Below are positions 18,808 through 59,796 of a stretch of DNA of 64,000 nucleotides, in pieces (within the stretch, counting starts at the first letter, position 1; every line of letters starts with the position of its first letter). Both the position numbers and the translations under genes were made by a program. This stretch comes from Lachnospiraceae bacterium (lineage in GTDB: Bacteria; Bacillota; Clostridia; Lachnospirales; Lachnospiraceae). The DNA is taken from assembly GCA_022483465.1 (NCBI GenBank), contig JAKVNF010000001.1, positions 1,426,001 through 1,490,000 of the forward strand, written 5' to 3'. The notes under the pieces were generated by a model that was not told the DNA's origin, made no database searches, and saw only the letters and a list, made by a program, of their open reading frames with translations.

Positions 18808-19492
18808 TTATTCCCTCATGGTAAAGACTTCCGACATAGAAGCAATCAGTGCTTTCAGTCGTTCGAGCTGTCTTTCCTGCTGTTTGTTTTGATCCGTCAA
18901 ATCCTTGATCTGGAGCCTTAGTTGAATGATCTCCTGACGCAGTTCTGACGCTTCATCCACAGGCGGTTTTGCTGTCTCTGATGTGCAAGTCTGTGTTGTC
19001 TTCCTCCGCCGTGGGCCATGAGGCTCCGTCGGGATGATGTTCCCATTGGCATCCACTTTTCCAATGAGTTTTCGTTTGTTCTTCGGCTTGTGCGTGACCG
19101 GATCTCTGAACGATTCAGATTCATACGCGTATTTTATGCCGGTCGTCTTGTTTGTGAGATAAACGATGGCGTTAGTAAAGAACCGGGTTGATGGGTTCCA
19201 TACCACAACCTCCATGGTGAACTCTCGACGCGATAATGTCCGATGAAGATATAGAATCCCCATTTGGAGCTCTTTTCTTCTCCGCATAATGCCTATCTTG
19301 TTATTTATAGTCACATACTCGGCAAGTGAGTGTATGTGTTTAGGCAATCTAGGTGATGCTTTGTTACATGATGCAACACAGCACGGATAGGAGTGTACCC
19401 AGCTCGAGCTCAAAGTGAGGTATTAGTGGTCTCATGCTAGGCGATCGCTTATCAACCCGTTTCTTAACTAACGCCTAAACGATACTTGACAT
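18808..19492 (-). pseudogene. IS66-associated accessory protein, interrupted by a MITE after codon 5
   Basis: The original gene starts at 19492 (MSSIV) behind AAGGAGGTGCGCA and resumes at 19167 with YLTNKTTGIKYAYE. Excising the MITE (19168-19475) and one TAAACGAT copy gives an unbroken protein of about 124 aa with a C-terminal coiled coil. In its present form the MITE frame reads in frame into the accessory gene. A hybrid protein of up to 201 aa could therefore start inside the MITE. Confidence 0.82.
19168..19475 (-). mobile_element. 308-bp MITE with IS1595-type ends, copy 1 (in the IS66 accessory gene)
   Basis: Terminal inverted repeats of about 28 bp begin GGCGTTAGTAAAGAACCGGG on one side and GGCGTTAGTTAAGAAACGGG on the other. 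They are flanked by an 8-bp TAAACGAT duplication (19160-19167, 19476-19483). By eye the sequence is identical to the copies at 25133, 44627 and 58480. It has no transposase. It carries an 82-codon open frame running out of the right end. Confidence 0.92.
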
Positions 19493-19519
19493 TGCGCACC
19501 TCCTTAGTAGGTATACCTT

Positions 19520-19548
19520 AGTATATAACTTATATGGTGCAATGTCAA
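19520..19548 (-). promoter_or_regulatory. IS66 promoter
   Basis: Consensus sigma-A promoter on the minus strand: TTGACA (complement of 19543-19548), 17-bp spacer, TATACT (complement of 19520-19525). It drives the accessory gene start at 19492. The -35 region and the start-codon region form an 11-bp inverted repeat (CTTGACATTGC and GCAATGTCAAG). Confidence 0.85.
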
Positions 19549-19613
19549 GAGAAAATGTATATATTATATTACGAATATACCTACTTCAGTCTTGAGTTTT
19601 CACACAATACAAA

Positions 19614-19656
19614 ATAGAGCGGAGAACGCCGTAAAATCAGGCATTCTCCGCTCTGT
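19614..19656 (-). terminator. Hairpin upstream of the IS66 promoter, possible insulator terminator
   Basis: AGAGCGGAGAA pairs with TTCTCCGCTCT around a short loop, followed on the minus strand by ATTTTG. It lies between the element tip and its promoter and could stop transcription entering from outside. Confidence 0.6.
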
Positions 19657-19848
19657 GTCAATGGTAATGATGTTATTCAGATTTGGGTTTCACCCCTGTG
19701 AATAGTAACGATTTCACAGATCCTGCCGCCTGCCGTTTCCCGCTTTGTGACAGATTTGCGGATTCCGATTATGAGTAGACTGTTTCATCACTTTTTGCTT
19801 TTTGAAAAGCTGTCTCCTGAAATTTTCCTTAAATCTTCCCCTGTTCCC

Positions 19849-19877
19849 TTGTTCCGGTGCGGCGGCCGACTTATGAT
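19849..19877 (+). promoter_or_regulatory. Probable dnaK promoter
   Basis: TTGTTC (19849-19854), 17-bp spacer, TATGAT (19872-19877), 40 bp before the dnaK start. No CIRCE operator was seen, so heat-shock HrcA control is not evident. The rest of 19718-19848 shows nothing further that I can support. Confidence 0.6.
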
Positions 19878-19916
19878 CAACCCTGTTTCAAACCACACGA
19901 AAGGACCGGAACCCTC

Positions 19917-21674
19917 ATGAGCAGTATCATCGGCATTGATCTTGGAACCACCAACAGCTGCGCCGCAGTGGTGGAGAACGGGACGCCCGTCATCATCCCC
20001 TCTTCCACCGGCGCACGCACCACACCCTCTGTGGCAGCCTTCACCAAGCAGGGAGAGCACCTGGTGGGCGACATCGCCCGCCGCCAGGCGGCCGTCAACG
20101 CGGAGCGGACCATCTTCTCGGTCAAGCGCCACATGGGCACCGACTGGTCCGTCCGGATCGACGGGCAGGTCTACAAGGCCCCCGAGATCTCCGCGATGAT
20201 CCTCTCGCAGATCCGAAAGGACGCGGAGGCCTTTCTGGGCACCTCGGTCACCCAGGCCGTCATCACCGTTCCCGCCTACTTCAACGATTCCCAGCGCCAG
20301 GCCACCAAGGACGCGGGCACGATCGCGGGGCTGGAGGTGCTGCGCATCATCAATGAGCCCACCTCCGCGGCCCTGGCCTACGGCCTCGACCACGCAGAGC
20401 CCACCAAGGTCCTGGTCTACGACCTGGGCGGCGGCACCTTCGACGTCTCGGTGATCGGCATCAGCGAGGGCGTCATGGAGGTTCTCGCCACCTGCGGCGA
20501 CAACCACCTGGGCGGAGACGACTACGACAAGCGGGTGACGGACTGGATCGTCGACCGCTTCCAGCAGGAGCACCACATCAACCTCACCCGGGACCCGGTG
20601 GCCATGCAGCGCATCCGGGAGGCCGCGGAGGCCGCAAAGAAAGAGCTCTCCACCGCCCAGACGACCCGGATCTCCCTCCCCTACATCGCCGCCGCAGGGA
20701 AGGGCCCCCTGCACCTGGAGCTCGAACTGACGAGGGACAAATTTGTGGAGCTCACCAGGGACCTGACGGACCGCACCGAGGCGCCGGTCCTGCAGGCGCT
20801 CTCCGACGCGGGGCTCACCCCCAGGGATATCGGCAGGGTGCTTCTTGTCGGCGGCTCCACGCGCATGCCCGCGGTGCAGGAGAAGGTCCGCTCGCTCCTT
20901 GGGCGGGATCCCTCCCACAGCGTCAACCCGGATGAGTGCGTCGCCATCGGCGCCGCGATCCAGGCCAGCACCCTCGCCGGCAACGCCCTGGTGCCCCGGG
21001 GCGCCTCCGAGAGCCTGGTGCTCTTCGACGTGACGCCCATGACCCTCTCCATCGAGACCGTGGGCGGCGTCTCCACGCCCCTGATTGCGCGCAACACCAC
21101 GATTCCCACCCGCCTCTCCAAGACCTTCTACGCCACCTCCCCGATCCAGCGGGAGGCGGAGATCCGGGTCCTGCAGGGGGACCGGCCCCTGGCAAGGGAC
21201 AACAAGCTGATCGGCCACTTCCGGCTCCGGGGCCTTCGGAGCACCCAGGGCGGGGGGCCCCAGATCGATGTCACCTTCGACATCGACGCCAACGGCATCC
21301 TCACCGTCTCCGCCCAGGACCAGGCCAGCGGCAAGATGAAGTCCATCACGATCACTGCCTCGGACCGCATGTCCCAGGATGAGGTCATGGAGGCCAGGGC
21401 GAAGGCCCAGATCTACCAGGCCCAGGATGAACTCCGCCGCAAGGGTCTTGCCCTCTACCAGGACTGCCAGGAGGTCCTATCACGGTCCCAGGCGCTTTCC
21501 GGGGACAAGAAGCGCCTGCCGGGCAAGGCGGCGCGCAAGGAGCTCACCCGCCTCGAGAAGGAGCTCTCCCGGTCCATGTCGCGCTTTCGCGCGGACAAGA
21601 TCGCCCAGGAGATGCTCGACGACATGCAGCAGGCCAGGACGGCCCTGGAGACGGCCCTGACGCCCTACCAGTAA
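19917..21674 (+). CDS. DnaK/Hsp70-family chaperone (solitary paralogue)
   Basis: 585 aa. The nucleotide-binding domain has [31 protein letters not shown] and [11 protein letters not shown], and the substrate-binding domain has LLDVTP-like [16 protein letters not shown]. The C-terminal lid is shorter than in standard DnaK, and the DnaK-type EEVD-like acidic tail is absent. No grpE, dnaJ or hrcA is nearby and no CIRCE is seen, so this is likely a second, specialised Hsp70 rather than the housekeeping copy. ATP-dependent folding role is inferred from the family. Confidence 0.88.
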
Positions 21675-21686
21675 GACAAAACCAAC

Positions 21687-21757
21687 TGACAGGATCCCTC
21701 CTCACAGGACACGGAAGTGCAAAGTCCTGTGGAGGGGGACATTTCCTGTCCGGAAAA
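21687..21757. repeat. Solo left-end remnant related to the IS3 element
   Basis: About 70 bp resemble the first 80 bp of the IS3 element at 2498, from TGA..GGATCC through GGAGGGGGACATTTC and TGTCC.GAAA, with the same palindrome. The ATG of orfA is CTG here and nothing of the transposase follows. It is a decayed end or a deletion derivative. Confidence 0.7.
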
Positions 21758-21769
21758 ATCATGAAAAAA

Positions 21770-21815
21770 TCGTCAGCCGGGACAAGCCCAGCTGACGACG
21801 TCACGATCGTTTTTC
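21770..21815. terminator. Hairpin between dnaK and the convergent hydrolase
   Basis: CGTCAGC pairs with GCTGACG (about 21769-21798) and TTTTT follows 14 bases later. Likely a terminator for dnaK, though the T-run is displaced. Confidence 0.45.
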
Positions 21816-21890
21816 CGTTCCACGGACGGGCCCATGCCAAGCCGGCGAGAGTCCGTTCTTTTGTTTTGCCTGGATTTGGTCACCCGATGC

Positions 21891-22865: not shown

Positions 22866-22879
22866 CTGAAAAACCTCCC

Positions 22880-25042
22880 TTACTCTGCTGGCTCTCCCAG
22901 CTGCAGGCTGACACTGATCTCAAACCGGGAGCCGCTTCCGAAGCTGCTCCGCACCTGTATGCTGCCCCCCATGGAGCTGATCACCCGCCTGGCGATCGAG
23001 AGCTCCCCGGAGGGATCATCGAAGAGCACCGGGAGTTTGGCATCCGGGATGCCGCTCCCCGTGTCCTGAATCGTGAAGTGAAAGTAGGCACTGTCCCGCA
23101 CCGGGGCATCTGCCACCGCAGTCAGGATGATTTTACCCCCGCTTGCCGTATTCTGCACTGCATTCTCCAGAATTCCGAGAAAGGCGAGCTGGAGGCCGGG
23201 CTTGCTGCCCACGACCCGGTCCGGCACCGTCCCGTTGGTCTCGCAGGAGAAGATGATGCCCTTCTCCCGGCACTGGGGCCGGATCACCTTGCGCACCGTA
23301 GCAAGGCACTCGGACAGAAGAAACGGCGCCGTGACGATGCTGCGCTCGGCGGGATCGATCTTCGCGATCTCCTCCAGGTCCGTGAGCATGCCGGGCACCG
23401 CGCCGGCCAGCGCCTGGATTCGTTCGTCGATCTTGATCAGCCGGTCGGCGGTCTCGTGCTTTTGGGCCTCCGCCGCCAGGCTCTGGATCGCGTTCATCTG
23501 GCCGCCGACGAGATGGCGCACCCGCCCCACGGTCTTTCCCTTTTCCTTCTCCCGGACCCGGCTGTCGGTGTCCTGCTTCTGCAGGCCCAGCTCCTTCTGC
23601 TGGATCTCCTCCTTCAGGTGTCCGATCTGGGTCAGATACCCCTGGCGGTTGCCCTCCTGCTCGGCGCGGATGGCCTCGATCTGCTCCTGGCTCTGCGCCT
23701 TCGTCTCGTCGTTCTCCTTGCGCAGGGCTGCGATCTTCTCCTCACTCTCCTGCCGCAGGGCCTCGACCTTCACATCGCACTCGGCGGTCAGGTGGCGGCG
23801 AAGCTCCTCCTCGTTCTTTTCGGCCTCGCTCTTCTCGTCGGCCAGGGCCTGCTTTTCGGCGGCAAGGCTCTCCTCGAGCTCCTGGATGCGCTGGCTCTGG
23901 GCATTTTGGGTCTCCCGGAGCGCTGCCAGCTCCTCATTGGCCTTCTCCAGGGAGGCCTTTGCCTCGTCCCGCTCCTTTTCCAGCGACTCCCGCTCTCCAA
24001 CGGCCTCCTGCAGGGCCTCCTTGCGGGCGGCATCCGCCGCGGACTGCAGCTTTTCGTCCGCCTCCTTGTGAGCCAGCTTCACCGCATCCTGCGCCGCCTG
24101 GATCAGGCGGCCGGTCTCCTCGATCTTCTTTTTGGCCTCTTCGGTCTGCCGCTTGGCCTCCTCCTGCTCCCGCACGGTGTCCGCGTCGAGCTGACGGATC
24201 CGGTCCTGGATCTCCTCCTCCCGGATGGTCTTGAGCTCCTCCTCCACCTTCTGGTGCTGCTTTGCAAGGTCCTCCAAAATCGAGGTCATGTCGGCAAACA
24301 AGAGGTAGAGGATCACTCGGTTCCCCTTCTTCTCCCGGTAGGCGCACCTTGCGGTGATCTCCACGGGGACCTTCTTCTCCTCCTTCGTGAGGGCGGTGAG
24401 GCGAAGGGAGGCAGGGGCCGTCCCCTCCTCCTTCATCAGCCTGCCGCAGAGGGCGCGCAAAAGCTTTTGATCCGCCGCCTCCAGCGCAAAGAACGGGTTC
24501 AGATCGGCCCGGTCGTAGAACGCATCCAGCGGATAGCCCAGGGCGTCGGCCAGACAGGTGTTGGCATAGAGCTCCCGAAGGGTGCCGGGATTCGTGCCGT
24601 TCCCCGCAAGGACCATGAGGCCCGCCGGGACGTTCTCGATGAACTCCCGGATCTGGTCCGCCTCGGAGGGCTCATACCTGCGGGACATGCCCACGTAGAT
24701 CAGGCGGTAGTCCGCCCCCTGCCGGCAGATCGAGAGGGAGCAGCGCAGGTTGACCGTCTCCTGCTCCCGCTTGGGGATCAGGTTGACGTCATAGACCACG
24801 GTATTGGTCTCTCCCGGCACCAGGGCAGACTTGATTGAGGCGATGTCCACGGCGTAGGGCTGGGGATCCCGGCCGATCAGGCTGTCGATGAAGTCCAGGA
24901 CCTCCTTCCGGGTCTTCAGGTGAAAGATCCCGTCCGGCGTCACCCAGACCAGGTCATCGGCGAGCACCGCGGCCGCCGCGGCCGCATCCCGCTCCTGGTA
25001 CAGGCTGTAAATGAAGTTTTTACCAAAATCAATAGGGGTCAT
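22880..25042 (-). CDS. Soluble sensor histidine kinase-like protein: NTF2-like, PAS, long coiled coil, HATPase
   Basis: 720 aa with no membrane helix. Residues 1-130 look like an NTF2/SnoaL-like fold. About 135-260 is a PAS-like domain (FIENVPAGLMVLAG and the repeat Y-x-N-T). About 265-480 is a highly charged Glu/Lys-rich coiled coil. The C-terminus has a GHKL ATPase with N box (GILENAVQNT), G1 (IQDTGSGIP) and G2 (FGSGSRFEI). The expected H-box is degenerate: VRHLVGGQMNAIQSL is the only candidate phospho-acceptor region. No response regulator is adjacent. Cytosolic signalling protein; input unknown. Confidence 0.75.
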   Translation of the reverse strand: MTPIDFGKNFIYSLYQERDAAAAAAVLADDLVWVTPDGIFHLKTRKEVLDFIDSLIGRDPQPYAVDIASIKSALVPGETNTVVYDVNLIPKREQETVNLRCSLSICRQGADYRLIYVGMSRRYEPSEADQIREFIENVPAGLMVLAGNGTNPGTLRELYANTCLADALGYPLDAFYDRADLNPFFALEAADQKLLRALCGRLMKEEGTAPASLRLTALTKEEKKVPVEITARCAYREKKGNRVILYLLFADMTSILEDLAKQHQKVEEELKTIREEEIQDRIRQLDADTVREQEEAKRQTEEAKKKIEETGRLIQAAQDAVKLAHKEADEKLQSAADAARKEALQEAVGERESLEKERDEAKASLEKANEELAALRETQNAQSQRIQELEESLAAEKQALADEKSEAEKNEEELRRHLTAECDVKVEALRQESEEKIAALRKENDETKAQSQEQIEAIRAEQEGNRQGYLTQIGHLKEEIQQKELGLQKQDTDSRVREKEKGKTVGRVRHLVGGQMNAIQSLAAEAQKHETADRLIKIDERIQALAGAVPGMLTDLEEIAKIDPAERSIVTAPFLLSECLATVRKVIRPQCREKGIIFSCETNGTVPDRVVGSKPGLQLAFLGILENAVQNTASGGKIILTAVADAPVRDSAYFHFTIQDTGSGIPDAKLPVLFDDPSGELSIARRVISSMGGSIQVRSSFGSGSRFEISVSLQLGEPAE

Positions 25043-25132
25043 AACGCGTTTATTATACCATCCCTTTCCCGGGGATTCCGCTCCCTGCGGGCTTTTTTCC
25101 CCGCCCCGGCGGTAGTGGTGTTATACTCAGAA

Positions 25133-25440
25133 GGCGTTAGTTAAGAAACGGGTTGATAAGCGATCGCCTAGCATGAGACCACTAATACCTCACTTTGAGC
25201 TCGAGCTGGGTACACTCCTATCCGTGCTGTGTTGCATCATGTAACAAAGCATCACCTAGATTGCCTAAACACATACACTCACTTGCCGAGTATGTGACTA
25301 TAAATAACAAGATAGGCATTATGCGGAGAAGAAAAGAGCTCCAAATGGGGATTCTATATCTTCATCGGACATTATCGCGTCGAGAGTTCACCATGGAGGT
25401 TGTGGTATGGAACCCATCAACCCGGTTCTTTACTAACGCC
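25133..25440 (+). mobile_element. 308-bp MITE with IS1595-type ends, copy 2 (5' leader of the DUF1292 gene)
   Basis: Left end GGCGTTAGTTAAGAAACGGG, right end reading CCGGTTCTTTACTAACGCC. Flanked by a 9-bp TACTCAGAA duplication (25124-25132, 25441-25449). It lies between a possible -10 (TATACT, 25123-25128, overlapping the duplication) and the ribosome binding site of the DUF1292 gene, so it may now be transcribed as that gene's leader. Its internal frame runs out but is not in frame with DUF1292. Confidence 0.92.
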
Positions 25441-25481
25441 TACTCAGAAAAAAACAAAGCACCCCGAAAGGAGGCTCACCC

Positions 25482-25796: not shown

Positions 25797-25804
25797 CCCG
25801 CTTC

Positions 25805-27709
25805 TCAGCGGCAGGCAAACAGGTAGGCATCCTGCGGCGAAAGCGTGAGCAGGATGCCTTTTTCCATCCGCTCATAGGTAAGCGCTTCCCCGAGAAGGTC
25901 CGTGTCCGAGACGGGCTCTGTAACGCCCAGAAGGGCAAGGGGAAGGAAGACCTGGGTGGGCTCCTCCTCCGCAGAGATCACCGCAACGAAGGTGCTCTCC
26001 CCGTCCTGCCTTGCCAGGGCCAGGGTCTGGCCCTGGGCATACAAAAACTGCATGCCGCCCTTGGAAAAGGCCGGGTTCTGCCGCCGCACCTCGATCAGAC
26101 GGTGGTACAGGGCATACTCCTTGGTGCCCGTGATGTCCCGGCTCCAGGGCATGGGATAGCGGCAGCCCTCGTTGGTCTGCGGCAGGCCGTCAATCCCCGC
26201 CTCATCGCCGTAGTAGACGCTGGGGCAGCCGATCAGCGTAAACAGAAAGATCGCCATCCCGCGGACCATCTTCCAGGTGATGGAAGGGTCGTTGTGGAAG
26301 CGCGGCACGTCGTGGCTGTCCACCAGGTTGAACTGGTTCTGCCAGAACACGTAGGGCATCTTTGCCAGGTAGGAGAGGATCACGTTCTTCACGTCCCCAG
26401 CAGAAAGGCGCCGGGTGTTGTCCCGCATGACCGGATTGCGGGAGAGGAAGAGATCCGGCTGGCCGTAGAAGTCCCGGATCACCCGGCTGCAGCCGTAGTA
26501 GTTCATCGGGGAATCCCAGGCATCGCCCTGCTGCCGCTCCGAGCACTCGTCCCAGTCCTCTGCGAGGATGTACGCCTGGGGGTTCACCGAGCGGATGGCC
26601 TTTCGGATCTCCGGCCAGACCTCGTCCGCGTACTGGTACTTCCCGTTGCGGGCCATCACGTCCGCCACATCAAAGCGCCAGCCGTCGATGGAATAGGGGG
26701 GCTTGAGCCACTTCTTCAGGACCGAGTCCTCCGCCTTGTAGAGCCTCTCCCGGAGCTTCTCGCTCCCGTAGTTCAAGGTGGGCAGGGTGTCCAGGTTCCA
26801 CCAGCCCTTGTAATGGTTGGTGCCCTTCTCAAAGAAGTAGTAGCTGCGCTCCTCAGAGTCCGGGTTGTGGTAGGCCCCGACGGAGGTGTCGAAGAAAGCG
26901 CCGTCCCGGTTGAACCACTTGTGGTTTGCCCCGGTGTGATTGATGGAGATGTCCAGGATCAGGCGCATGCCGTTCTCGTGGAGTGCTTTCGAGAGCGAGG
27001 CCAGGGCCGCATCCCCGCCGAAGTGCTCGTCCACGTGAAAGTAGTCGATGCAGTCGTACTTGTGCACCGAGGGGCCACGGAAGATCGGGTTGATGTAGAG
27101 TGCCGTGACGCCCAGCTGCTTCAGGTAGGGGATCTTCTGCTCAATGCCCTTCAGGTCGCCGCCGTGAAAGTCCAGGCAGTGTCCCTCCTCATAGGTAAGC
27201 GGCACATCCTCCCAGTGGTCCCGGTGGATCGACGGGTACCCGTAGGCGGTGTACTCCCCGCTTTTCACGTCGTTGGACGGATCCCCGTTGGCAAACCGCT
27301 CCGGAAAGATCTGGTAGAACACGGCGGACTTGACCCAGGCCGGCTGCTCGTAGTCCGCAAGCAGCACAAAGCTGGTGCTGTGATCCGGCATGTAGTCCTG
27401 GATGCCCCGCTGGGTGTAGTAAAAGATCCTGTCCGCGCAGATCAGATAGAAGCGGTACTCGCACCGGGGATCCTCCATGGCAAACGAGCCTTTGTACCAG
27501 GCAAGGCCGTTCTGCTCTTTTTCTTTTTGCATCTCCTGAATGAGCTGGGCGCCGTTTTGCCTCGTCCAGAGCATCACGTGCTCCACCGGGGCGTCTGCAA
27601 ACATGCGCAGCCGCACCGATACCGTATCCCCCAGTTGGGGCCTCTGGCAGGAGACATAGTTTCTGGTCCCGTCGCTGTATACGCTGTCCTTCCAGTCTGC
27701 TGTTCTCAT
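25805..27709 (-). CDS. GH13 alpha-glucan hydrolase (neopullulanase/cyclomaltodextrinase-like)
   Basis: 634 aa. An N-terminal carbohydrate-binding beta domain (about 1-130) precedes the TIM barrel. Catalytic motifs include DISINHTGANH, the nucleophile in IDGWRFDVADV, the acid in ILAEDWDE and the transition-state Asp in NLVDSHDVPR. No signal peptide, so it works on imported maltodextrins in the cytoplasm. It is upstream-linked to a lipid-kinase gene and close to malQ, giving an alpha-glucan set. Confidence 0.9.
   Translation of the reverse strand: MRTADWKDSVYSDGTRNYVSCQRPQLGDTVSVRLRMFADAPVEHVMLWTRQNGAQLIQEMQKEKEQNGLAWYKGSFAMEDPRCEYRFYLICADRIFYYTQRGIQDYMPDHSTSFVLLADYEQPAWVKSAVFYQIFPERFANGDPSNDVKSGEYTAYGYPSIHRDHWEDVPLTYEEGHCLDFHGGDLKGIEQKIPYLKQLGVTALYINPIFRGPSVHKYDCIDYFHVDEHFGGDAALASLSKALHENGMRLILDISINHTGANHKWFNRDGAFFDTSVGAYHNPDSEERSYYFFEKGTNHYKGWWNLDTLPTLNYGSEKLRERLYKAEDSVLKKWLKPPYSIDGWRFDVADVMARNGKYQYADEVWPEIRKAIRSVNPQAYILAEDWDECSERQQGDAWDSPMNYYGCSRVIRDFYGQPDLFLSRNPVMRDNTRRLSAGDVKNVILSYLAKMPYVFWQNQFNLVDSHDVPRFHNDPSITWKMVRGMAIFLFTLIGCPSVYYGDEAGIDGLPQTNEGCRYPMPWSRDITGTKEYALYHRLIEVRRQNPAFSKGGMQFLYAQGQTLALARQDGESTFVAVISAEEEPTQVFLPLALLGVTEPVSDTDLLGEALTYERMEKGILLTLSPQDAYLFACR
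25825..25864 (+). terminator. DUF1292 terminator embedded in the GH13 coding region
   Basis: AGGCATCCTGC (25825-25835) and GCAGGATGCCT (25849-25859) form an 11-bp perfect stem followed by TTTTT on the plus strand. It overlaps the last 20 codons of the convergent GH13 gene. Confidence 0.85.
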
Positions 27710-44284: not shown

Positions 44285-45395
44285 TTACGCACCTTTCGAA
44301 GTGGACTCCTGCCGGAGTGCATCCCGATATGCGCCCGGCGTCTGGCCAGTCTTTTTCTTGAAGATCTCATAGAAGTAGTGCGGATCGTTGTACCCCACCG
44401 CCTCTGCAATGTCTGCGGCACGCAAATCCGAGTGTGCAAGGAGCTCCTTTGCCCGCTCGATTCGAAGGTTGGTCAGGTACTTCACAAAAGAAGTCCCAAC
44501 GGTTTCCTTGAACAGCACAGAGAGATAAGCAGGATTGAGTCCGGTATAGGATGCCAGCTCAGTGAGGCCGATATCCCGCTGATAGTTTTCCTGCAGGTAT
44601 GCAAGGATCCCGGAAATATTGTCATTGGCGTTAGTAAAGAACCGGGTTGATGGGTTCCATACCACAACCTCCATGGTGAACTCTCGACGCGATAATGTCC
44701 GATGAAGATATAGAATCCCCATTTGGAGCTCTTTTCTTCTCCGCATAATGCCTATCTTGTTATTTATAGTCACATACTCGGCAAGTGAGTGTATGTGTTT
44801 AGGCAATCTAGGTGATGCTTTGTTACATGATGCAACACAGCACGGATAGGAGTGTACCCAGCTCGAGCTCAAAGTGAGGTATTAGTGGTCTCATGCTAGG
44901 CGATCGCTTATCAACCCGTTTCTTAACTAACGCCTTGTCATTCTTTGCGGTCTCCCGGCTATCTGAAACCGCTGTATCTTCCTGCTGCGGCACCGGATCC
45001 TTTTCCGCAGGAGGGATTTCCCCCTCACGCCTTTTTTGCAGCCTCTCAAACGCCATCCGGAGCTTGTCCCGGGTCACCGGCTTGTCGATATAGTCCAGCG
45101 CCCCCAGGACCAGCGCTTTTCTTGCATAGGAGAATTCCTGGTAGGCACTGATGATGATATAGTCACAGTTCCGGTTAAACTCCTGGGCGCTCTCGATCAG
45201 AGAGAGTCCGTCCAGATAGGGAATCCGAATGTCCGTGATGACCACGTCCGGATGGGTGCGCCGAATCACCTCCAGTGCTTCCCGCCCGTCCCAGGCGGTT
45301 CCCACGACCTCACAGTCGATGTTCATCTTCGCCAGCAGCACCTGAATGCCGCGGATCACAATCTTCTCATCATCTACAATGACCAGTCGGTACAT
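44285..45395 (-). pseudogene. YesN-like response regulator (REC + AraC HTH) split by a MITE
   Basis: REC domain from 45395 (VIVDDEKIVIRGIQ, VITDIRIPYLDGLSL with the phospho-Asp, YIDKPV with the Lys) and, after the insert, the AraC-type HTH (ISGILAYLQENYQRDIGLTE to FKKKTGQTPGAYRDA) ending at 44285. The MITE at 44627-44934 with TTGTCATT duplication separates them. Removing it restores an in-frame 264-aa protein. Today the REC half ends inside the MITE; the DNA-binding half could be made from a start in the MITE, whose open frame fuses in frame to it. Confidence 0.9.
44627..44934 (-). mobile_element. 308-bp MITE with IS1595-type ends, copy 3 (in the response regulator)
   Basis: Inverted ends as in the other copies, 8-bp TTGTCATT duplication at 44619-44626 and 44935-44942. 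Inserted in the linker between REC and HTH domains. Orientation places the open MITE frame on the same strand and frame as the HTH part. Confidence 0.93.
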
Positions 45396-46915
45396 CTTCT
45401 CCTCCTGATTTTTTCTCTTTGCGTTCCGGCATTTCTTTCTCCTCCGACGGGTGCAGGATGGCGCTTACCTCCTCTTGGGAAAGCACCGGAATCCGAATCT
45501 CAGCCCGGGTGCCTCCCTTTGTTCCCTCAGAAAATTCAATGCCGTATTCTTCTCCGTAAAAGAGCCGGATCCGCTCCCGAATGTTTCGAATGCCGTATCC
45601 CCCATTCAACACAGCAGGGTCCTGAATGCCAATCCCATCGTCCTCCACCACAAAGGTCAGGATGCCGCCCTCCCGGCTTCCCGTCAGAGAGATGGTCCCC
45701 GGCCCGGTCTTCGGCTCCAGGCCATGGTATACGGAATTCTCCACCAGTGGCTGCAGCAGAAAGGTCAGCAGATACTCCCCCATCATCGCTTCGGGAACAT
45801 CGATGACCAGCTGAAACCTTCCTTCAAACCGGTAATTCTGGATCTTCATGTAGGCACGGATCCGCTCCAATTCCCTGGAGACCAGGATCAGCTTGTCTCC
45901 TCCATTCAGGCTCAGCCGGAAATTCTCGGACAGTGCCTGCACGAAGTCCGCAATCTCCTCCTCTCCCCGGATCTCCGCCATGAAGTAAAGGGTATCCAGG
46001 GTGTTGTAGAGGTAGTGCGGATTGATCTGCGTCTGCAAAAGCAGAAGCTGCTGCTCCCGCTCACGGATCTGGGAATTGAGAAGTCGGTTCTTGAGATCGA
46101 TGTTGTTGTTCACGAGATCCTTGAACTGATTTCCTATGCGGCCGACCTCGCTTTCGTCGAACTGCTCCTCTACGTGGCTGCTGCCCTCTGCGACCTGCCG
46201 CATGGTCTTTTCCAGTGTATTGAGCGGGCGTGTGATTCTGCCCGCGATGATGCTCGAGAGCCACACGCTGATCATAATGATGCCCACCGCCAGGATCGCT
46301 GCAACGTATCCCACCGAGGCACTCTTTCCCGAGAGAGCCTGCTTGGAGATCACTGCGGCGATCTTCCAGCCGGTACTCTCATCGGTCACCGCAGTGGTGA
46401 GATAGTTCCCATCCTCATCATCGGATCCCTGAAAGATCGAGCTGATCTCCTCTTTCTGCGTATCTGTCAGCGTATCCTGGCCGGCGGTGTAAAGGACACC
46501 GCCGTCTCCATCCAGGACGAAGTAGTGCGTGACATTCTGACTTTCTCCGCTCTTCATGGGAAAAGCGACATCCAGCGCGGATTTTCTCACGTTGAATACC
46601 ACATATCCAATCGGTTTTCTTGTCCTGGTAGAGTACAGACGTTTGGCAATCGAAAAAGTTTCATCCTTCCCGTCGTCAAACAAGACGTTGGTTCCCAGAA
46701 AGACTTCCTTTCCCTTTGCCTTGTCGGCAAGGGCAATCCAGTCACCGGAGAGGATGTCCTGTGCACCAGTATAGTAGGGGACCATGTAGTGCTGGTTGTA
46801 GTCATTCTGGGTGGTAAAGATCAGATTCCCCGCGTTGTTGACGCAGAGGATTTCTCGAAGGCGTTAGTAAAGAAACGGGTTGATAAGTAACGATCCCAAA
46901 AGTTTTTCCGGATTT

Positions 46916-46959
46916 GTACATTTAAATGTACGACGCCCTTTTAGGACTTGACCTATAAT
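46916..46959 (+). promoter_or_regulatory. IS1595 copy A promoter region with palindrome
   Basis: Perfect 16-bp palindrome GTACATTTAAATGTAC (46916-46931) and -10 TATAAT (46954-46959). Copy B has the same arrangement with the same 38-base offset. No good -35, so the palindrome may be an operator or activator site. Confidence 0.65.
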
Positions 46960-46982
46960 AGTCGTGTCAGGAGGGCACGACT

Positions 46983-47993
46983 ATGGGTAACATCGAACGC
47001 ATACTGGCTGCAGGAAACAACCTCTCTGATTCGGATCTTAAGATTCTCGTTAACAAGATCATGGACCGTCTGAACCATGAGAAGGCGTTTGCTTCTTCGG
47101 TGAAGATCGTTCCCCGGATGGAATGTCCGGTCTGCCATACCAGTTCACATGTTGTTAGGAACGGTCACAAGCATGGCAAGCAGGCATTTCTGTGCCGGGC
47201 ATGCGGAAAGTCGTATGTTACAACAAGTAACACACTTCTGTCTGGCTCACATTACAGCAGTGATGTCTGGAAGACCGTCCTTGCTGACACACTGATGGGC
47301 GTATCCCTTGATGATGATCTTCAGCATATCCGGATCAGCCATACCAGCCTCTTCTTTATGAGGCATAAGATCATGCTGGCGCTTGAGGATCTTCAGGAGG
47401 TCAGTCCTGCAATGGTCGAGGAAGTTGTCGAGGCTGATGAAACCTACATACCAGAGCCGGAGAAAGGGACAAAATTCGGGCCCGACGCCAAGAGAAAGCC
47501 CCGTAAGCGCGGTACTCCGGCATCCAAGCGCGGCCTTTCGGACGAGCAGATCTGCATCTGCACTGCAGTTCAGCGCAAAAGCGGCGATCTGGTTGTAAAG
47601 TCAGAGAACCGGGCAAGACCTTCCACAGAGGATGTCGTTGACATCTACACAGGTCATGTTAAGAAGGGGACCCTCTTCCTTACGGACGGAATGAACGTAT
47701 ATCCGAAGCTGGGCAAGGTACTGGGACTCAGCGTTATGAATGTGAAGAAGGAGACAGGCAGCTTCTTCAGCCTGAACACGGTTAACAATCTGCACAGCTT
47801 CATCAAGAACCGCTACTACGACTACCGCGGTGTGGCTACCAAGTACCTGAACCGCTACAACATGGTATTCCGTGCAGCATACCGGATGAGGATGTCGGTG
47901 GATGAACTTGCAGAGAAGCTCTTCCTGGTGCGTGATCCGAAGAGAGTGCATCACTATGATGATGTCAAGGAACTGAATATGTTTGCTGTATAA
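46983..47993 (+). CDS. IS1595-family transposase (ISXO2-like DDE)
   Basis: 336 aa. N-terminal zinc ribbon CPVCHTSSHVVRNG ... CRACGKSY (about residues 48-78), then the ISXO2-like DDE domain with VVEADETYIPEPEKG (first Asp/Glu), FLTDGMNVYP and NTVNNLHSFIKNRY. AGGAGG precedes the ATG at 46983. Full length. Acts on TIRs shared with the 308-bp MITEs, so it may mobilise them. Confidence 0.92.
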   Translation: MGNIERILAAGNNLSDSDLKILVNKIMDRLNHEKAFASSVKIVPRMECPVCHTSSHVVRNGHKHGKQAFLCRACGKSYVTTSNTLLSGSHYSSDVWKTVLADTLMGVSLDDDLQHIRISHTSLFFMRHKIMLALEDLQEVSPAMVEEVVEADETYIPEPEKGTKFGPDAKRKPRKRGTPASKRGLSDEQICICTAVQRKSGDLVVKSENRARPSTEDVVDIYTGHVKKGTLFLTDGMNVYPKLGKVLGLSVMNVKKETGSFFSLNTVNNLHSFIKNRYYDYRGVATKYLNRYNMVFRAAYRMRMSVDELAEKLFLVRDPKRVHHYDDVKELNMFAV

Positions 47994-48498
47994 ATATGTT
48001 CCTACGAATTTTATATTGCTTATCACCCCGGATCCTTACTAACGCCTTCTCGAATCTCCGAGTTGGAGAACAGAATCCGGTCGAGCTGCTGTGTGATCTG
48101 CCTGCTTGCTGCCGCACTGAAATACCTGGTGCCCTCCTGTCCCTTCGTGAACTCACTGAGAAAGGCCTCGTTCGTAAGGAGATTCCGCTCCTCATCTACG
48201 ATCGAATTCATGGAGAGTTCCAGGATGTTGCGGGCGACCTGCAGACTGTCCCGGTTGGCCGTCTGGTATTCCTTCTCCACCGTACTCCGGGAGATCTCAA
48301 ACAGCACAAAAGCAGGGATCATCGTGGAGACCATGGTGATGATGACCAGGGCCAGGAAGATCTGTTTTCGGAGGGATAAGAGATTTCTCCTCTCTATTCC
48401 TCTCTTCATCCTGTCGATGAATTTTGGTGTCTCTCCCATGCCAAACAAGCCCTCTCCCCTTTTGTTCCCGCCGGGCAGCGGCGGGTCTGTCTTTCTCT

Positions 48499-51207: not shown

Positions 51208-51250
51208 GGTACGCCTCCCGGATGCAGGCGGCCGCCTGCCGTCTGTTCGT

Positions 51251-53504: not shown

Positions 53505-53523
53505 TTTCCCTCCCTGTAGGTTC

Positions 53524-53552
53524 AAACATAGGATGTTAAACATCCTATGTTT
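53524..53552. promoter_or_regulatory. Perfect palindrome, probable operator of the GntR regulator
   Basis: AAACATAGGATGT, TAA, ACATCCTATGTTT: 13-bp arms and a 3-base centre. It sits just before the acid-sugar kinase start, overlapping the probable transcription start (a -10 TATGAT on the minus strand lies beside it). FadR-type regulators bind such sites. Confidence 0.8.
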
Positions 53553-53836
53553 ATCATAGCGGTTTTTTCTCCAAATGCCAGTACTACTTTTATGGTTTCC
53601 AAAGAGGGGGAAACACGGTTGGCAAAGCAGCTGCTGCCTGCAGTCTCCGGGCCGGCTCATCTGGTGAACCAAAATGTTTCACCTTGAAGGCGTTGCAGGC
53701 GCCCACTATGATGAAAAAGGATGCTGCAAATCCACACGTATAATTCGAATCGGAGCGCAGCATATCCGGATTGAACTGCTGTGCGCTTTCGCTGGCAGCT
53801 GATCCGATACCGGGGATGAAAACGGAAGGATGAGAA
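53553..53836. other. Intergenic region with no supported gene
   Basis: Between divergent operon and GH43. A short hairpin (GGTGA/TCACC near 53670) and degenerate open frames only. It presumably holds the GH43 promoter, but no convincing -35/-10 pair was found. A 113-codon minus-strand frame has no site and overlaps the GH43 gene. Confidence 0.5.
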
Positions 53837-54380
53837 ATGTTACACAGCTTCACACCGGGCAGAGTTTGGCTTGATACCAATGGACACCGCATCCAGGCGC
53901 ACGGCGGCTCTGTGCTGTATGTTTCCGGCAAGTATTACTGGTACGGGGAAAACAAGGATGCGGCAGATGGGCGAAATGGCAGACAGACCTTCGGTGTTCG
54001 CTGCTATCGGTCAGAGGATCTCTACAACTGGGATGATATGGGGCTGATCATCCCGCCAGATCTGGAAGACGCAAGTTCCTCTCTGAATCCCTATTACGCC
54101 AGGCTGGACCATCCTCACATCATTTACAACAGATGGACCAAAAAGTACGTCTGTTGGGCAAAGGTCATGAACCGGGACGGATCGCAGACCGAGATCGTGC
54201 TGACAGGAGATGATATTCTGGGGCCCTATCAGATTGTGCGGGATCACGTCCGGCCTCTGGGGATGAATGCCGGTGACTTTGACCTCGCCGTGGTGCCCGA
54301 TGGAAAGGCATAGGCGTTAGTAAGAAAACGGGTTGATAAGCTCCAAAGCATTTTAGCAGAAGTATAAAATATGCCGTTTT

Positions 54381-54424
54381 GTACATTCTGCTGTACAACG
54401 GCCTTCTCTAACTTGAACTACAAT
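54381..54424 (+). promoter_or_regulatory. IS1595 copy B promoter region with inverted repeat
   Basis: GTACATTCTGCTGTAC (54381-54396) and -10 TACAAT (54419-54424), same 38-base offset as in copy A although the flanking bases differ. Confidence 0.6.
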
Positions 54425-54447
54425 AGTCTTGCCAGGAGGGCAAGACT

Positions 54448-55476
54448 ATGAGCTGCATTGAGCGCATACTGACCGAAGCCAGAGATCTTTCCAGGGACGA
54501 CCTGATTCTTCTTGTTAACAAGCTCATGGAGGGCTTCTCCCATGAGAGTGCAACCTCTTCTCCGAAGAAGATGATTGCTCCCCGTTTGGATTGTCCGATC
54601 TGCCATTCCAATGCTCATGTTGTTAGGAATGGACACAAACATGGAAAACAGGCATACATCTGCAGGCAATGTGGAACGTCATTTGTTACAACGAGCAACA
54701 CTTTGCTCTCAGGCTCACACTTTGGTACTGAGATCTGGACCAAGGTTCTGGAAGAGACGCTCAGGGGGACCTCTCTGGATAAGACGGTCAAGTCACTTGC
54801 CAGCCATGGATGCAAGATCAGCCATAGCAGTCTGTTCTTCATGCGGCATAAGATCATGCTTGCTCTCGAGGACATGCAGGTGGAGCAGCCAGCCACGGTG
54901 GAAGATGTCGTGGAAGCGGATGAAACCTACGTTCCGGAGTCCAAAAAAGGTACGAAATTTGGCCCTGATGCCAGTCGAAAGCCCCGCAAGCGTGGCACTC
55001 CCGCATCCAAACGCGGCCTTTCAGACGAGCAGATCTGTATCTGCACCGCAGTACAGCGCAAGACTGGCGATCTGATCGTGAAATCCGAGAACCGGGCAAG
55101 GCCTTCCAGTGCGGATGTTGTTGATATCTATACTGGTCATGTCCAGAAGGGAACACTTTTCCTGACGGACGGCATGAATGTGTATCCAAGACTGGGCAAG
55201 ATCCTGGGAATCACGGTCATGAATGTGAAGAAGGAGTCGGCAAGTTTCTTCAATCTGAACACTGTGAACAACCTTCACTCCTTTATCAAGCACCGCTATA
55301 TCGAATATCGCGGCGTGGCTACCAAGTATTTGAACCGTTACAACCTCGTATTCCGGGCAGCGTACAGGCAGAGGACCACGATTGGGGAACTTGCGGACGC
55401 TCTCTTTGCATCCAGGAATCCCAAGAAGGTACACCATTATGGAGATGTTAAGGAGCTCAATCTGCTTGCAATTTGA
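54448..55476 (+). CDS. IS1595-family transposase (ISXO2-like DDE)
   Basis: 342 aa. Zinc ribbon CPICHSNAHVVRNG ... CRQCGTSF, DDE domain with VVEADETYVPESKKG, FLTDGMNVYP and NTVNNLHSFIKHRY. About six residues longer than copy A because of an insertion (TVKSLASHGC) before the helix ISHSSLFFM. AGGAGG precedes the ATG. Apparently intact. Copy B has the best-matched TIR pair, so it is a candidate driver for the MITEs. Confidence 0.92.
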   Translation: MSCIERILTEARDLSRDDLILLVNKLMEGFSHESATSSPKKMIAPRLDCPICHSNAHVVRNGHKHGKQAYICRQCGTSFVTTSNTLLSGSHFGTEIWTKVLEETLRGTSLDKTVKSLASHGCKISHSSLFFMRHKIMLALEDMQVEQPATVEDVVEADETYVPESKKGTKFGPDASRKPRKRGTPASKRGLSDEQICICTAVQRKTGDLIVKSENRARPSSADVVDIYTGHVQKGTLFLTDGMNVYPRLGKILGITVMNVKKESASFFNLNTVNNLHSFIKHRYIEYRGVATKYLNRYNLVFRAAYRQRTTIGELADALFASRNPKKVHHYGDVKELNLLAI

Positions 55477-55657
55477 TGACTACAAGATGCACTTATTGCT
55501 TATCAACCCGTTTTCTTACTAACGCCAAGGCATATTACTACTTTGAGCGTGTGCACAGTGAGCTGATCTGTGCCGATCTGACGGATGACGATACAGATCT
55601 GACGGGATATTATTCCACCCATTGTACTAAGGAATTGACACATAATAAATTAATCAG

Positions 55658-55686
55658 TTGGCACGTAATAAATCGACTGCTATAAT
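55658..55686 (+). promoter_or_regulatory. ISAzo13-type transposase promoter
   Basis: TTGGCA (55658-55663), 17-bp spacer, TATAAT (55681-55686). Preceded by a direct repeat of ACATAATAAAT / GCACGTAATAAAT type near the element tip. Confidence 0.8.
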
Positions 55687-55719
55687 AGCCTTATATCTCG
55701 GATCGGAGGCAGTCGATTC

Positions 55720-57120
55720 ATGGCTTCACCAATATATGATAGCGACCACGTTGATCATATTTTATCCAATATTTCCGTCATTTTGCCCTATGTCAATGAG
55801 CGCCAGAGACGGCTGATTATAGGAGCTCTTTCTGATGCACTGGGTTATGGCGGCAAGTCTGCGATCAGTGAAAAATGCGGTGTGGCACGTAATACCGTGC
55901 GCAAGTCCGACGAAGAGTTCAAGCTCATTATCGCTGATGCTGCCGGCGAGACTTCTACTTCCACAGAGACAGAAACCAAAAGTGACGAAGCAGAAGACTC
56001 TGGCACTACGGATACCGATAAGGATTCTGAAATGTTGCTGGAAGCAACTCCAGAGCAGATTGTCGGGCTTTATGATGGCTCCGTCAGCCTTTCTTCACTT
56101 GAAAGCAGACAGCGCCGCGCGGGTGGTGGCAGAAAAAGTGAAGCTGCGAAAAATCCGGAACTGATTCCGGCATTGATGGAGATCCTTGACGACTACACCT
56201 ATGGTAATCCGGAATCCGTGCTGCTTTATACAAACCTGAGTGATCGCAAGCTCTCAGCTATGCTCGCTGAGAAGGGCTATTCAGTTGGGAGAAATGTCGT
56301 CAACCGAATGCTGAAGGCACTCGGTTGGAGCAAACAACAGAACAAGAAGCTGAAGCAGGTCGGTAAGGAACATCCAGACAGAAATGTGCAGTTTGAATTC
56401 ATCAATGCAACGGGTAAAGAGGTTTTAGCTGCAGGGAATCCCATGATTTCCATCGATTGCAAAAAGAAGGAAAACATAGGAGACTATGCCAACAAAGGCA
56501 AGGAGTACAGACATAGCAAAGATCCTCGAGCGGTGCTTGACCACGATTTTCTGGATAAGGAACTTGGTCAGGTTGCACCATATGGTGTTTACGTCGTCAA
56601 CAATAATACCGGGTTTGTAAATCTTGGAACCACACATGACACCTCCCAGTTCGCAGTCGCCAGTATACGTGCCTGGTGGTACACCGTTGGCAAGAACACG
56701 TTTCCTGACGCGACCATGATTTATATCACGTGTGATGGAGGCGGAAGCAATTCCAGCCGTGTGCGAATGTTCAAGACGGAACTGGCAAAGCTGGTTGAGG
56801 AAATCGGGATTCCGATTCAGATCTCTCATTTCCCGCCGGGAACATCAAAGTGGAACAAGGTGGAGCATCGCCTTTTCTCTGAGATATCAAAAAGTTGGGC
56901 AGGTAAACCGCTAATCAGTGTTGAAACTGTAGTTCAGTTGATCGGATCAACAACTACAACAACTGGTCTGAAGGTAACCTGTCAGCCTGATTACAATGAC
57001 TATAAAACAGGTCTGAAGGCTTCTGAGGAAGAGTACGATAAAGTTGATATTGAATGGATCAATATCGGGACATCTAACAAATGGAACTACATCATTCATG
57101 GGCTGAAAAAGGACTCGTGA
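55720..57120 (+). CDS. ISAzo13-family transposase
   Basis: 466 aa. N-terminal HTH (RQRRLIIGALSDALGYGG, CGVARNTVRK), a Glu/Thr/Ser-rich linker (about 75-105), then the DDE core: SIDCKKKENIGDYAN (first Asp), TCDGGGSNSSR (second Asp), PPGTSKWNKVEHRLF (Glu). Matches the ISAzo13 layout. CGGAGGC upstream of the ATG. Intact. Confidence 0.9.
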   Translation: MASPIYDSDHVDHILSNISVILPYVNERQRRLIIGALSDALGYGGKSAISEKCGVARNTVRKSDEEFKLIIADAAGETSTSTETETKSDEAEDSGTTDTDKDSEMLLEATPEQIVGLYDGSVSLSSLESRQRRAGGGRKSEAAKNPELIPALMEILDDYTYGNPESVLLYTNLSDRKLSAMLAEKGYSVGRNVVNRMLKALGWSKQQNKKLKQVGKEHPDRNVQFEFINATGKEVLAAGNPMISIDCKKKENIGDYANKGKEYRHSKDPRAVLDHDFLDKELGQVAPYGVYVVNNNTGFVNLGTTHDTSQFAVASIRAWWYTVGKNTFPDATMIYITCDGGGSNSSRVRMFKTELAKLVEEIGIPIQISHFPPGTSKWNKVEHRLFSEISKSWAGKPLISVETVVQLIGSTTTTTGLKVTCQPDYNDYKTGLKASEEEYDKVDIEWINIGTSNKWNYIIHGLKKDS

Positions 57121-57387
57121 ATTGATCAATTTAAAGGATGACACACCCTAAGCCGCTTCGCGGCGGCGTTGCTACCTCAAGTCTTCGGCTAAAGATTTAC
57201 ATTTTCGCTGCATCAAAAAAAGCAGCCCTTGATGGCTGTGGTAAAGTTAAGTTACGACACAAAACAAACCCAGCGCAGAAGAACTGCCGGGGTTTATATT
57301 ACCACACTCGATCATTACCAACAATGGCATATCCTCCTGTCGGGTTTGCTTTCTGCCAGCAAATTTACTCATGCAGGAGGCTTTACC
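57121..57387. other. Spacer between ISAzo13-type and recombinase genes
   Basis: No supported gene. A GCCGCTTCGCGGC hairpin near 57152 may end the ISAzo13 transcript or mark its right tip. A smaller stem (AAACCC/GGGGTTT near 57265-57297) precedes the recombinase and could be an attenuator. Confidence 0.45.
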
Positions 57388-58248
57388 ATGGACGATTACC
57401 TTGCTCAATTCAAAAAGATGCTTGATTGCAGGAACCTGTCACCACACACTCGTGATCAGTATGCATCTACAATTACCCAGTTTCTGGACTACTTCGATAC
57501 TCAGCTTCATAAGGATCCTGCCAGTTTTGAATGGGGCGAAATACGCGCCTTTTTTGACCGGCTTAAAGCTACAAAAAATCTGAGCGACCGTACCATCAAC
57601 AGCGACATTGCACATCTGGAAAACTTCATAATCTATGTTCTCCATAAGCATTGGGATCCAACTCAGGTTCCCAAGCGCAAGTTCGATAAATATATCCCGT
57701 TTGTTCCTACAAAAGAACAGTTCCGCACTTTGCTCAATGCAGCAGATAACATCAGATACAAAACCATGCTGATTATCATGTATTCTGCTGGTCTGCGCTG
57801 TCAGGAGACCTGTAATCTCAGATACTGTGACATCCATGTGAAAGAGCATCGTATTTATGTTTCGGTATCCAAGAACAGATCTGATCGTTATGCAATTCTT
57901 GGGAAAGCGACCGTTCAGGCTCTTACTGACTACTGGAAATCTCTTGGCAGTCCGGAGATAGAGGATAAGACCGAGTATCTGTTTCCGTCTCCGATGATCC
58001 CTTCGATGCCGATCTCTACAACCAGTGTCCAGACCTATGTCCGTAAGATCGCAGATTCAATTGGACTGGATAAGCTGACCTGCCACAGTCTGCGGCACGC
58101 CTTTGGAACGGAATGCTATCGCTCTGGCGTAGATATTTTCCGTCTGAAGGAGCTCATGGGGCATAACAGTATTACTTCAACCCTGATTTACATTACTCTG
58201 GCACATCAGGATTTCAATGGAATCACAAGCCCTATCGATACTCTTTGA
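57388..58248 (+). CDS. Tyrosine recombinase / phage-type integrase
   Basis: 286 aa from the ATG at 57388 behind AGGAGG. N-terminal SAM-like core-binding domain (LDCRNLSPHTRDQYASTITQ) and catalytic domain with Arg in SAGLRCQETCNLR, His-x-x-Arg in HSLRHAFGTE, the His in LMGHNSITST and a Tyr in LIYITLA, so the active site is complete. It ends 10 bp before the IS91-type transposase and is co-transcribed. Recombinase genes of this type often accompany IS91 relatives. Confidence 0.9.
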   Translation: MDDYLAQFKKMLDCRNLSPHTRDQYASTITQFLDYFDTQLHKDPASFEWGEIRAFFDRLKATKNLSDRTINSDIAHLENFIIYVLHKHWDPTQVPKRKFDKYIPFVPTKEQFRTLLNAADNIRYKTMLIIMYSAGLRCQETCNLRYCDIHVKEHRIYVSVSKNRSDRYAILGKATVQALTDYWKSLGSPEIEDKTEYLFPSPMIPSMPISTTSVQTYVRKIADSIGLDKLTCHSLRHAFGTECYRSGVDIFRLKELMGHNSITSTLIYITLAHQDFNGITSPIDTL

Positions 58249-58258
58249 GGTACCGATC

Positions 58259-59796
58259 ATGAGTATAAAGATCGTATCACGAGAGCAGGCAAAGGCTGCC
58301 AATAAGAAGACTCACCCCATTCAGAAGATCTTTCAGCTCGGATGGCCGCAGTATCAGAAAGACTATGCAGGACACATCACTTCCGAACAGTACAAAGCTG
58401 CCGATTGTATTTCCAAGTGTCGGACGGAAGCAATGGGCTATAACAAAGTAGAATGCCCCCGCTGTGGTTATACCGAAATGGCGTTAGTAAAGAACCGGGT
58501 TGATGGGTTCCATACCACAACCTCCATGGTGAACTCTCGACGCGATAATGTCCGATGAAGATATAGAATCCCCATTTGGAGCTCTTTTCTTCTCCGCATA
58601 ATGCCTATCTTGTTATTTATAGTCACATACTCGGCAAGTGAGTGTATGTGTTTAGGCAATCTAGGTGATGCTTTGTTACATGATGCAACACAGCACGGAT
58701 AGGAGTGTACCCAGCTCGAGCTCAAAGTGAGGTATTAGTGGTCTCATGCTAGGCGATCGCTTATCAACCCGTTTCTTAACTAACGCCTACCGAAATTCAC
58801 TACAACTCATGTGGTAACCGTAACTGCCCAATGGATCAGTATGTCAACAAGGAAATCTGGGTTGATGAACGCCAGTCTGAGCTTGTGGATTGCTCATACT
58901 TTCATGTCGTCTTTACCACTCCATGTGAGCTGAATCCTCTGATCTTTGCCAACAAGAGTCTGCTCTATGATCTGCTGCATAAGGCTTCAGGACAGACACT
59001 TGTGGAACTGATGCAGAATAAAAAGTTTCTCGGTGCAACACCCGGTGTCATTCAGGTGCTTCATACATGGGGAAACAACATGATGTTCCATCCGCATATC
59101 CACTGCATTGTTTCCGGAGGCGGGCTGAAGGGAAAGCCAAAGCGATTTGTTAAAGGGAAAAAGAAACACTTCTGTCTCCCTGTAAATGTCCTGAAATCAA
59201 AGTTCAGAGGTAAGTTCATGGCCGGCCTGCAAGAGCTTTATGATGCCGGGAAACTGATCATGCCCGGTGATGACAGCATCAGAACTCCTCAGGACTGGCA
59301 GGCTTTCAAGGACAGCATGTATAAAAAATCCTGGGACATTGATATCAAAGAGACACTATGCGGCAAGGGCAATGCCATCCAGTATCTCGGCAGATATGTT
59401 AATCGTGTCGCAATCAGTGAGGGCAGGATTCTCAGCTATGACAGAGAAACAGTAACGTTCAAAGCCAAAGACAATAAGCAGGGTGGAAAATGGGTAGTTA
59501 TCAAAGTCCGCTTACAGGAATTCATTCGCAGATTTCTTCTTCATATCCTACCTAAGGGCTTCCAGAAGATCCGATACTATGGGTATCTGAGTAATTCTCA
59601 AAGGAAGAAGAATGTAGCCCGTATTCAGAAACAGCAAAAGAAGCAGAGGTTTGTCTCACGTTTTGCTGGCATGGGTAAAAGCGAGATACTCCTTGAGCTA
59701 TTTTCGGATGATTATCATATTTGTCCAAGGTGTGGCGCTGATATGGTGAAAGTAGATTTCAAGCCAAGGCCTGAAGCTAAATCCAACAGCGCATAA
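58259..59796 (+). pseudogene. IS91-family (Y2/HUH) transposase split by a MITE
   Basis: N-terminal part 58259-58479 includes CPRCGYTE; the rest from 58797 has YNSCGNRNCPMDQY (second half of the zinc finger), the Y2_Tnp domain with VVFTTPCELNPL, HTWGNNMMFHPHIHCIVSGGG carrying the HUH motif, and YLGRYVNRVAISEG with a candidate Tyr. Removing the MITE and one TACCGAAAT copy gives one frame of about 406 aa, a normal size. Usual RHCPKCQ is RNCPMDQ here. A restart at 58831 would lack the zinc finger. Confidence 0.88.
58480..58787 (-). mobile_element. 308-bp MITE with IS1595-type ends, copy 4 (in the IS91-type transposase)
   Basis: Same ends and interior as the other three. 9-bp TACCGAAAT duplication at 58471-58479 and 58788-58796. 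Its open frame faces the opposite strand to the transposase gene. Confidence 0.93.

Follow-up and report, generated by a model that had tools for sequence, protein, structure and literature searches.

The 64,000-nucleotide stretch of Lachnospiraceae bacterium DNA analyzed here, hereinafter the window (positions 1,426,001 to 1,490,000 of contig JAKVNF010000001.1, assembly GCA_022483465.1), contains four copies of a 308-bp repeat with inverted ends and two insertion sequences (IS) of the IS1595 family, denoted IS-T and IS-A (Table 1). The transposases of both IS score above the cut-offs of the family models, and 8-bp duplications are present, in agreement with this assignment. The 308-bp repeat is very probably a miniature inverted-repeat transposable element (MITE), i.e., a non-autonomous DNA transposon, which was amplified very recently and mobilized in trans by an IS1595-family transposase encoded in the same genome. 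It is short, lacks a transposase gene, possesses IS-type inverted ends, and shares the lengths of the target site duplication (TSD) and the target preference with its partner IS.

Table 1. Copies of the 308-bp element and IS1595-family elements in the window
Feature	Position in the window	Strand	TSD or model match
MITE copy 1 (subfamily A)	19168..19475	+	TSD TAAACGAT at 19160-19167 and 19476-19483
MITE copy 2 (subfamily A)	25133..25440	-	TSD TACTCAGAA at 25124-25132 and 25441-25449
MITE copy 3 (subfamily A)	44627..44934	+	TSD TTGTCATT at 44619-44626 and 44935-44942
MITE copy 4 (subfamily A)	58480..58787	+	TSD TACCGAAAT at 58471-58479 and 58788-58796
IS-T, IS1595-family element, 1187 bp	46860..48046	+	TSD TTCTCGAA
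IS-T transposase, 336 aa	46983..47993	+	PF12762, 46.4 bits (cut-off 27); NF033547, 110.6 bits (cut-off 75)
IS-A, IS1595-family element, 1214 bp	54313..55526	+	TSD AAGGCATA
IS-A transposase, 342 aa	54448..55476	+	PF12762 and NF033547 above cut-off

A first-pass annotation, made from the sequence alone, had described the four copies as 308-bp elements that look identical by eye. All four are present at this length; the three copies on the plus strand show no differences, and the copy at 25133-25440 is the same sequence inverted, with 100% identity. The annotation further proposed terminal inverted repeats of about 28 bp that are shared with the IS1595 elements at 46860 and 54313. Alignment bears out the sharing (the ends begin with GGCGTTAGT) but the length has to be amended: the ends of the MITE pair with each other over 25 bp with 2 mismatches, and a match of 28 bp, with 1 mismatch, is reached between the right end of the MITE and the left end of IS-T. 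The interior was said to be unrelated to the transposase gene, and indeed, a blastn comparison of the MITE with both IS aligns the ends and otherwise gives chance 9-mers and a single weak match of 21 bp (E-value 0.25), with no further match of the interior to either IS-A or IS-T. Because the interior is not found in these two elements, the MITE would be of type II or of lost origin rather than of type I, that is, derived by internal deletion of an IS (type I/II wording as used in PMC6382973).

The four copies in the window belong to a much larger set: a search of the entire 4.30-Mb genome identified 115 places occupied by the MITE, of which 112 are uninterrupted copies of 308 bp, together about 35 kb or, by simple arithmetic, 0.8% of the genome, and 3 are interrupted. 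The single uniform family that had been proposed is near-uniform within each group, but resolves into three subfamilies, A, B and C, with B and C differing from A at 10 and 8 of the 308 positions, respectively. The uninterrupted copies comprise 66 exact A copies, 22 exact C copies, 16 B copies, 4 B copies with one further change, and 4 rare variants (two A copies that end on the right as IS-A does, one C copy in which position 254 is as in A, and one divergent copy at 94%). In a pattern search, the A-type core was detected at 68 places, the B/C core at 45, and a core of any of the three subfamilies at 113 places. Pairs of ends 308 bp apart without the A core initially gave the impression of a cassette of fixed length and variable interior, but they proved on alignment to be subfamilies B and C. 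Membership in a larger gene-bearing element can be dismissed as well, given that a 48-mer and a 50-mer from near the ends, one per end, each occur 115 times, which is the number of MITE places. Thus, none of the findings listed in the first-pass annotation as contrary to its reading (divergent copies, lack of a match between the inverted repeats, a larger gene-bearing element) was obtained. Among the three interrupted copies, two are B copies split by an A copy and the third is a C copy split by another transposable element; in this long split copy (C1:1119223-1121051), the intruder, judged by eye from the printed sequence, is of the same sequence type as an ISAzo13-like transposase gene (PF07592) that is located in the window, at 55720-57120, directly after IS-A. 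The composition of the entire set is best explained by three founder sequences, with A the most amplified, that spread very recently in this lineage.

A perfect TSD flanks 108 of the 111 evaluable copies, including those carried inside larger repeats (the 112th was fetched without its left flank); 98 of these duplications are 8 bp long and 10 are 9 bp long. The three remaining copies are C2:244186, where a single base differs, C3:522849, which is part of a 340-bp unit discussed below, and C4:754958, which has no duplication. The 96 independent sites (99 when the inner units of tandem arrays are included) and the imperfect one add up to 785 duplicated base pairs, with one difference only. In the 8-bp TSDs of the 90 sites whose flanks are distinct, A or T occupies the two outer positions of either side in 100, 98, 100 and 100% of the cases, compared with 48 to 64% for the four middle positions; the flanks are 48.6% AT, and the bases immediately outside the TSD are also A/T-rich. 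Accordingly, the pattern WWNNNNWW is present at 85 of the 87 independent 8-bp MITE sites and WWNNNNNWW at all 9 of the 9-bp sites. The resident IS follow the same rule. Among 34 IS copies in the DNA fetched (five further rows of the copy table turned out to be pairs of MITE ends and were dropped), 27 have an 8-bp and 5 a 9-bp TSD, and every one of these fits the respective pattern (27/27 and 5/5).

Further links between the MITE and the IS come from composite units. At C3:522817-523156, a B-type MITE follows the outermost 32 bp of an IS-A end, and the resulting 340-bp unit is bounded on both sides by TTTTTATA, an 8-bp duplication; the same junction of an IS-A end and a B-type MITE is present at the array at C1:1014650. 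In the simplest interpretation, a single transposase used the IS-A end and the far end of the MITE as a pair and moved the entire unit. A second kind of unit consists of an A copy inserted into a B copy, 624 bp in all, and is found without any difference at C1:1610334-1610957 and C3:596878-597501. The inner copy is surrounded by TTGTTATT at both places and the outer duplications differ, TTCAAAAA and TTTTCGAAA. The nested pair most likely moved as a single unit.

Under the mechanism that these observations suggest, the approximately 25-bp inverted ends of the MITE would be recognized by the transposase of the co-resident IS1595-family elements, and this enzyme would insert the MITE at WWNNNNWW sites, duplicating 8 or sometimes 9 bases; the founders A, B and C would have been amplified in this way very recently in this lineage, presumably all three by one enzyme. 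The recent burst driven in trans, as proposed in the first-pass annotation, thus fits the identity of the copies, the near-perfect duplications, the common target rule and the unit that joins an IS end to a MITE end, all of them features of the genome sequence. The favored source of the enzyme is IS-A together with its close relative IS-B, perhaps with a contribution of IS-T. Full-length copies of the IS-A transposase in the genome number 24 at about 100% identity and 20 at 98%, the latter denoted IS-B, against 2 full-length copies for IS-T, and the mixed 340-bp unit carries an IS-A end; for these two reasons IS-A/IS-B is preferred.

The variant of this scheme in which IS-T is the actual helper, with IS-A and IS-B inactive on the MITE, is the alternative that survives best, although it appears doubtful. 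The left end of IS-T is the nearest match to both ends of the MITE, with 1 mismatch in 25 in each case, compared with 3 in 25 for both ends of IS-A; the right end of IS-T is diverged, with 5 mismatches in 25. The transposase of IS-T, with its 2 full-length copies compared with 24 and 20, would also have to accept the IS-A end of the 340-bp unit.

Several observations weigh against mobilization of the MITE in trans by IS-A/IS-B or against parts of its support. The IS with the most similar ends has only 2 full-length copies, and the abundant IS-A/IS-B differ from the MITE ends at 3 of 25 positions. Two of the 87 MITE targets violate the WWNNNNWW pattern, and two of the 34 IS copies, adjacent to each other, lack a duplication. 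It is conceivable, although less likely, that two separate insertions hit one and the same base and produced the two 624-bp units. In the two A copies whose right end is that of IS-A over 29 bp, the end could have been swapped by recombination rather than by transposase activity (one of these copies has its own 9-bp duplication). Finally, the evidence is the sequence of one genome of the species, so that no site is shown to be polymorphic. At C1:634516-636923, 7 bases (TTCTGAT) separate a copy of the IS-A/B type from an IS-T copy, and both copies lack their own duplication.

That 66 copies do not show one difference over 308 bp suggests that the family is young, and the near-unmutated duplications also point to youth. 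The alternative, namely that old copies were kept identical by gene conversion, is very improbable. Recombination between copies does occur, as indicated by a four-unit tandem array, and three copies appear mosaic (the two A copies that end as IS-A on the right, and the C copy that agrees with A at position 254), but these are only 3 of 112 copies even though the three subfamilies sit side by side. Moreover, the duplications are immune to conversion between copies because they lie outside the element and differ from site to site; conversion cannot mend them, yet they contain the single difference noted above. Gene conversion was therefore rejected as the main cause of the identity.

Equally improbable is that the spread reflects selection for an interior function, such as a small RNA, a promoter or an outward reading frame: an 85-codon frame is open through the left end, the whole element folds better than shuffled sequences (z-scores of -3.8 and -4.7) and one interior piece reaches -2.2, but base pairing between the two inverted ends contributes to the full fold, and the remaining three pieces score 0.0, 2.0 and -0.1, so that there is no consistent interior fold; a simple scan for sigma-70-type promoters and terminators yields 0 promoter-like and 0 terminator-like sites, no Rfam family reaches the gathering threshold in the window (one chance-level match in the element, E-value 0.95), and there is no excess of in-frame fusions: in the three frames that exit through the left end, the reading continues into the flank for 100 codons or more at 17, 16 and 14 of the 94 sites, respectively. 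With nothing clear in the scans and no frame bias, these candidate functions were discarded.

Two tandem arrays, both with a period of 316 (308 bp plus an 8-bp duplication), were detected, one of four B units (C1:1014650-1015905) and one of two A units (C2:928411-929034). The first is located in the right end of an IS-A copy, and 31 distinct uninterrupted IS-A/B right ends in the DNA fetched represent the empty state of its site. Units 1 and 3 of this array carry one common change that is missing in units 2 and 4 and is found also at two other sites, a pattern that is as expected if a dimer had been doubled by recombination. The first dimer could have originated by a second insertion at the same site, by slippage on the 8-bp repeat, or by re-integration of a circle as reported for ISApl4. 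A more far-reaching scheme, under which the IS1595 transposase would read a two-sided WW-N4-WW code and freely pair ends of different elements, and 316-bp circles consisting of the MITE and one duplication would re-integrate to produce the arrays, is speculative and rather unlikely; should it hold, re-integrating circles would be a second amplification route for a bacterial MITE beside simple transposition.

The MITE was not found in any of the 61 other genomes of the genus, and its end pattern, with up to 3 mismatches allowed, is likewise missing in all 61. Among 396 other genomes of the family, with at most two candidates per genome scored, none contains the MITE; one has a 24-bp match (E-value 6.8e-4) that was taken as chance. 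There is no match among viral contigs, probed with one exact 21-mer, and no MITE match among plasmids and phages; the collections used for these searches may omit records of this genome itself and of very close ones. Of three genomes reached through related transposases, two match the MITE at its ends only and one not at all; in the metagenome-assembled genome (MAG) UW_Xyl_LCO2 and in Fusobacterium naviforme ATCC 25832, only the element ends match. A related gene of UW_Xyl_LCO2 is without the MITE that is present at C2:169420, but the flanks are only about 89% alike and this gene may itself be mobile.

With respect to known systems, MITEs linked to the IS1595 family have been described already, and what is new here is this far more abundant element. 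In Haloquadratum walsbyi, a MITE linked to ISHwa6, an IS1595-family member, shares the type of partner, the 25-bp inverted ends and the 8-bp repeats, but resides in an archaeon, is 165 bp long and is present in 7 copies (PMC3852290), compared with 308 bp and 115 places in the bacterium studied here. MITEAba12 of Acinetobacter resembles the present element in having ends similar to those of a co-resident IS, a recent burst inferred from duplications, A/T-rich targets and no orientation preference; it differs in its partner, ISAba12, its length of 113 bp, its 9-bp duplications, which were seen in 40% of 90 copies, and its number of up to 22 copies per genome, and in that no base pattern was reported for its targets (PMC6382973). 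ISApl4, an IS1595-family element of Actinobacillus pleuropneumoniae, has 8-bp A/T-rich duplications, 32 of the 35 published ones fitting WWNNNNWW, and a reported circular form; unlike the MITE, it is autonomous and 712 bp long, with 14-bp ends, and its repeats are A/T-rich at all positions rather than only at the two outer bases per side and nearby flank bases (PMC12561309). The Tn3-derived miniature elements, TIMEs, are similarly able to move larger mosaic units, but have Tn3-family ends and 5-6 bp duplications, whereas the units described here are MITE-in-MITE and IS-end plus MITE (PMC4133298). The MITE described in PMC11578231 is tied to IS1182, not IS1595. No published name or description of the 308-bp element was found in literature titles and abstract openings, ISfinder being outside the scope of this search. 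With more than 100 copies, three founders, intact duplications and natural products joining IS and MITE ends, the family provides an unusually clean record of a bacterial MITE burst; with A/T making up only about one half of the flanks, the IS1595-type target rule can be read base by base, and the family lends itself to the question of how the number of MITEs can come to exceed that of the helper IS.

The insertion sites lie in long stop-free stretches less often than random positions do. At 93 MITE sites (6 of the 99 were left out because of short flanks), a stop-free stretch of at least 600 nt is present in 34 cases, compared with 231 of 321 positions drawn at random from these flanks; the respective numbers are 68 of 93 and 280 of 321 for at least 450 nt, and 18 of 93 and 171 of 321 for at least 750 nt. 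This shortage is not taken as a sign of selection because the A/T target rule alone could produce it. In the window, copy 2 is intergenic among open reading frames of at least 120 aa, with the neighbors at 22880-25042 and 25805-27709. Copy 3 separates the receiver-domain part from the AraC-type helix-turn-helix part of a response regulator gene on the minus strand (Pfam), and copy 4 is located within an IS91-type transposase gene (Pfam, NCBIfam). Copy 1 adjoins an IS66-type transposase gene (16960-18789) inside a repeated unit, and its flanks recur at six places in the genome. The IS66-type element with the MITE (16960-19475 in the window) is thus repeated with identical MITE flanks at these six places, which indicates that hitch-hiking also multiplies the MITE.

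Several relatives of IS-A were encountered in the course of the searches. IS-A has a counterpart with 99.9% DNA identity in Eubacterium sp. UW_Xyl_LCO2, a bioreactor MAG assigned to Eubacterium_H, and this near-identity suggests a recent transfer of the IS between lineages. Fusobacterium naviforme ATCC 25832 encodes a relative of the IS-A transposase at 75% identity, in an element with an IS-T-like left end. A distant relative of the same transposase (37%) is located at C1:1611131-1611865, near the nested MITE unit of the same contig, with no recognizable GGCGTTAGT ends in the 1301 bases fetched.

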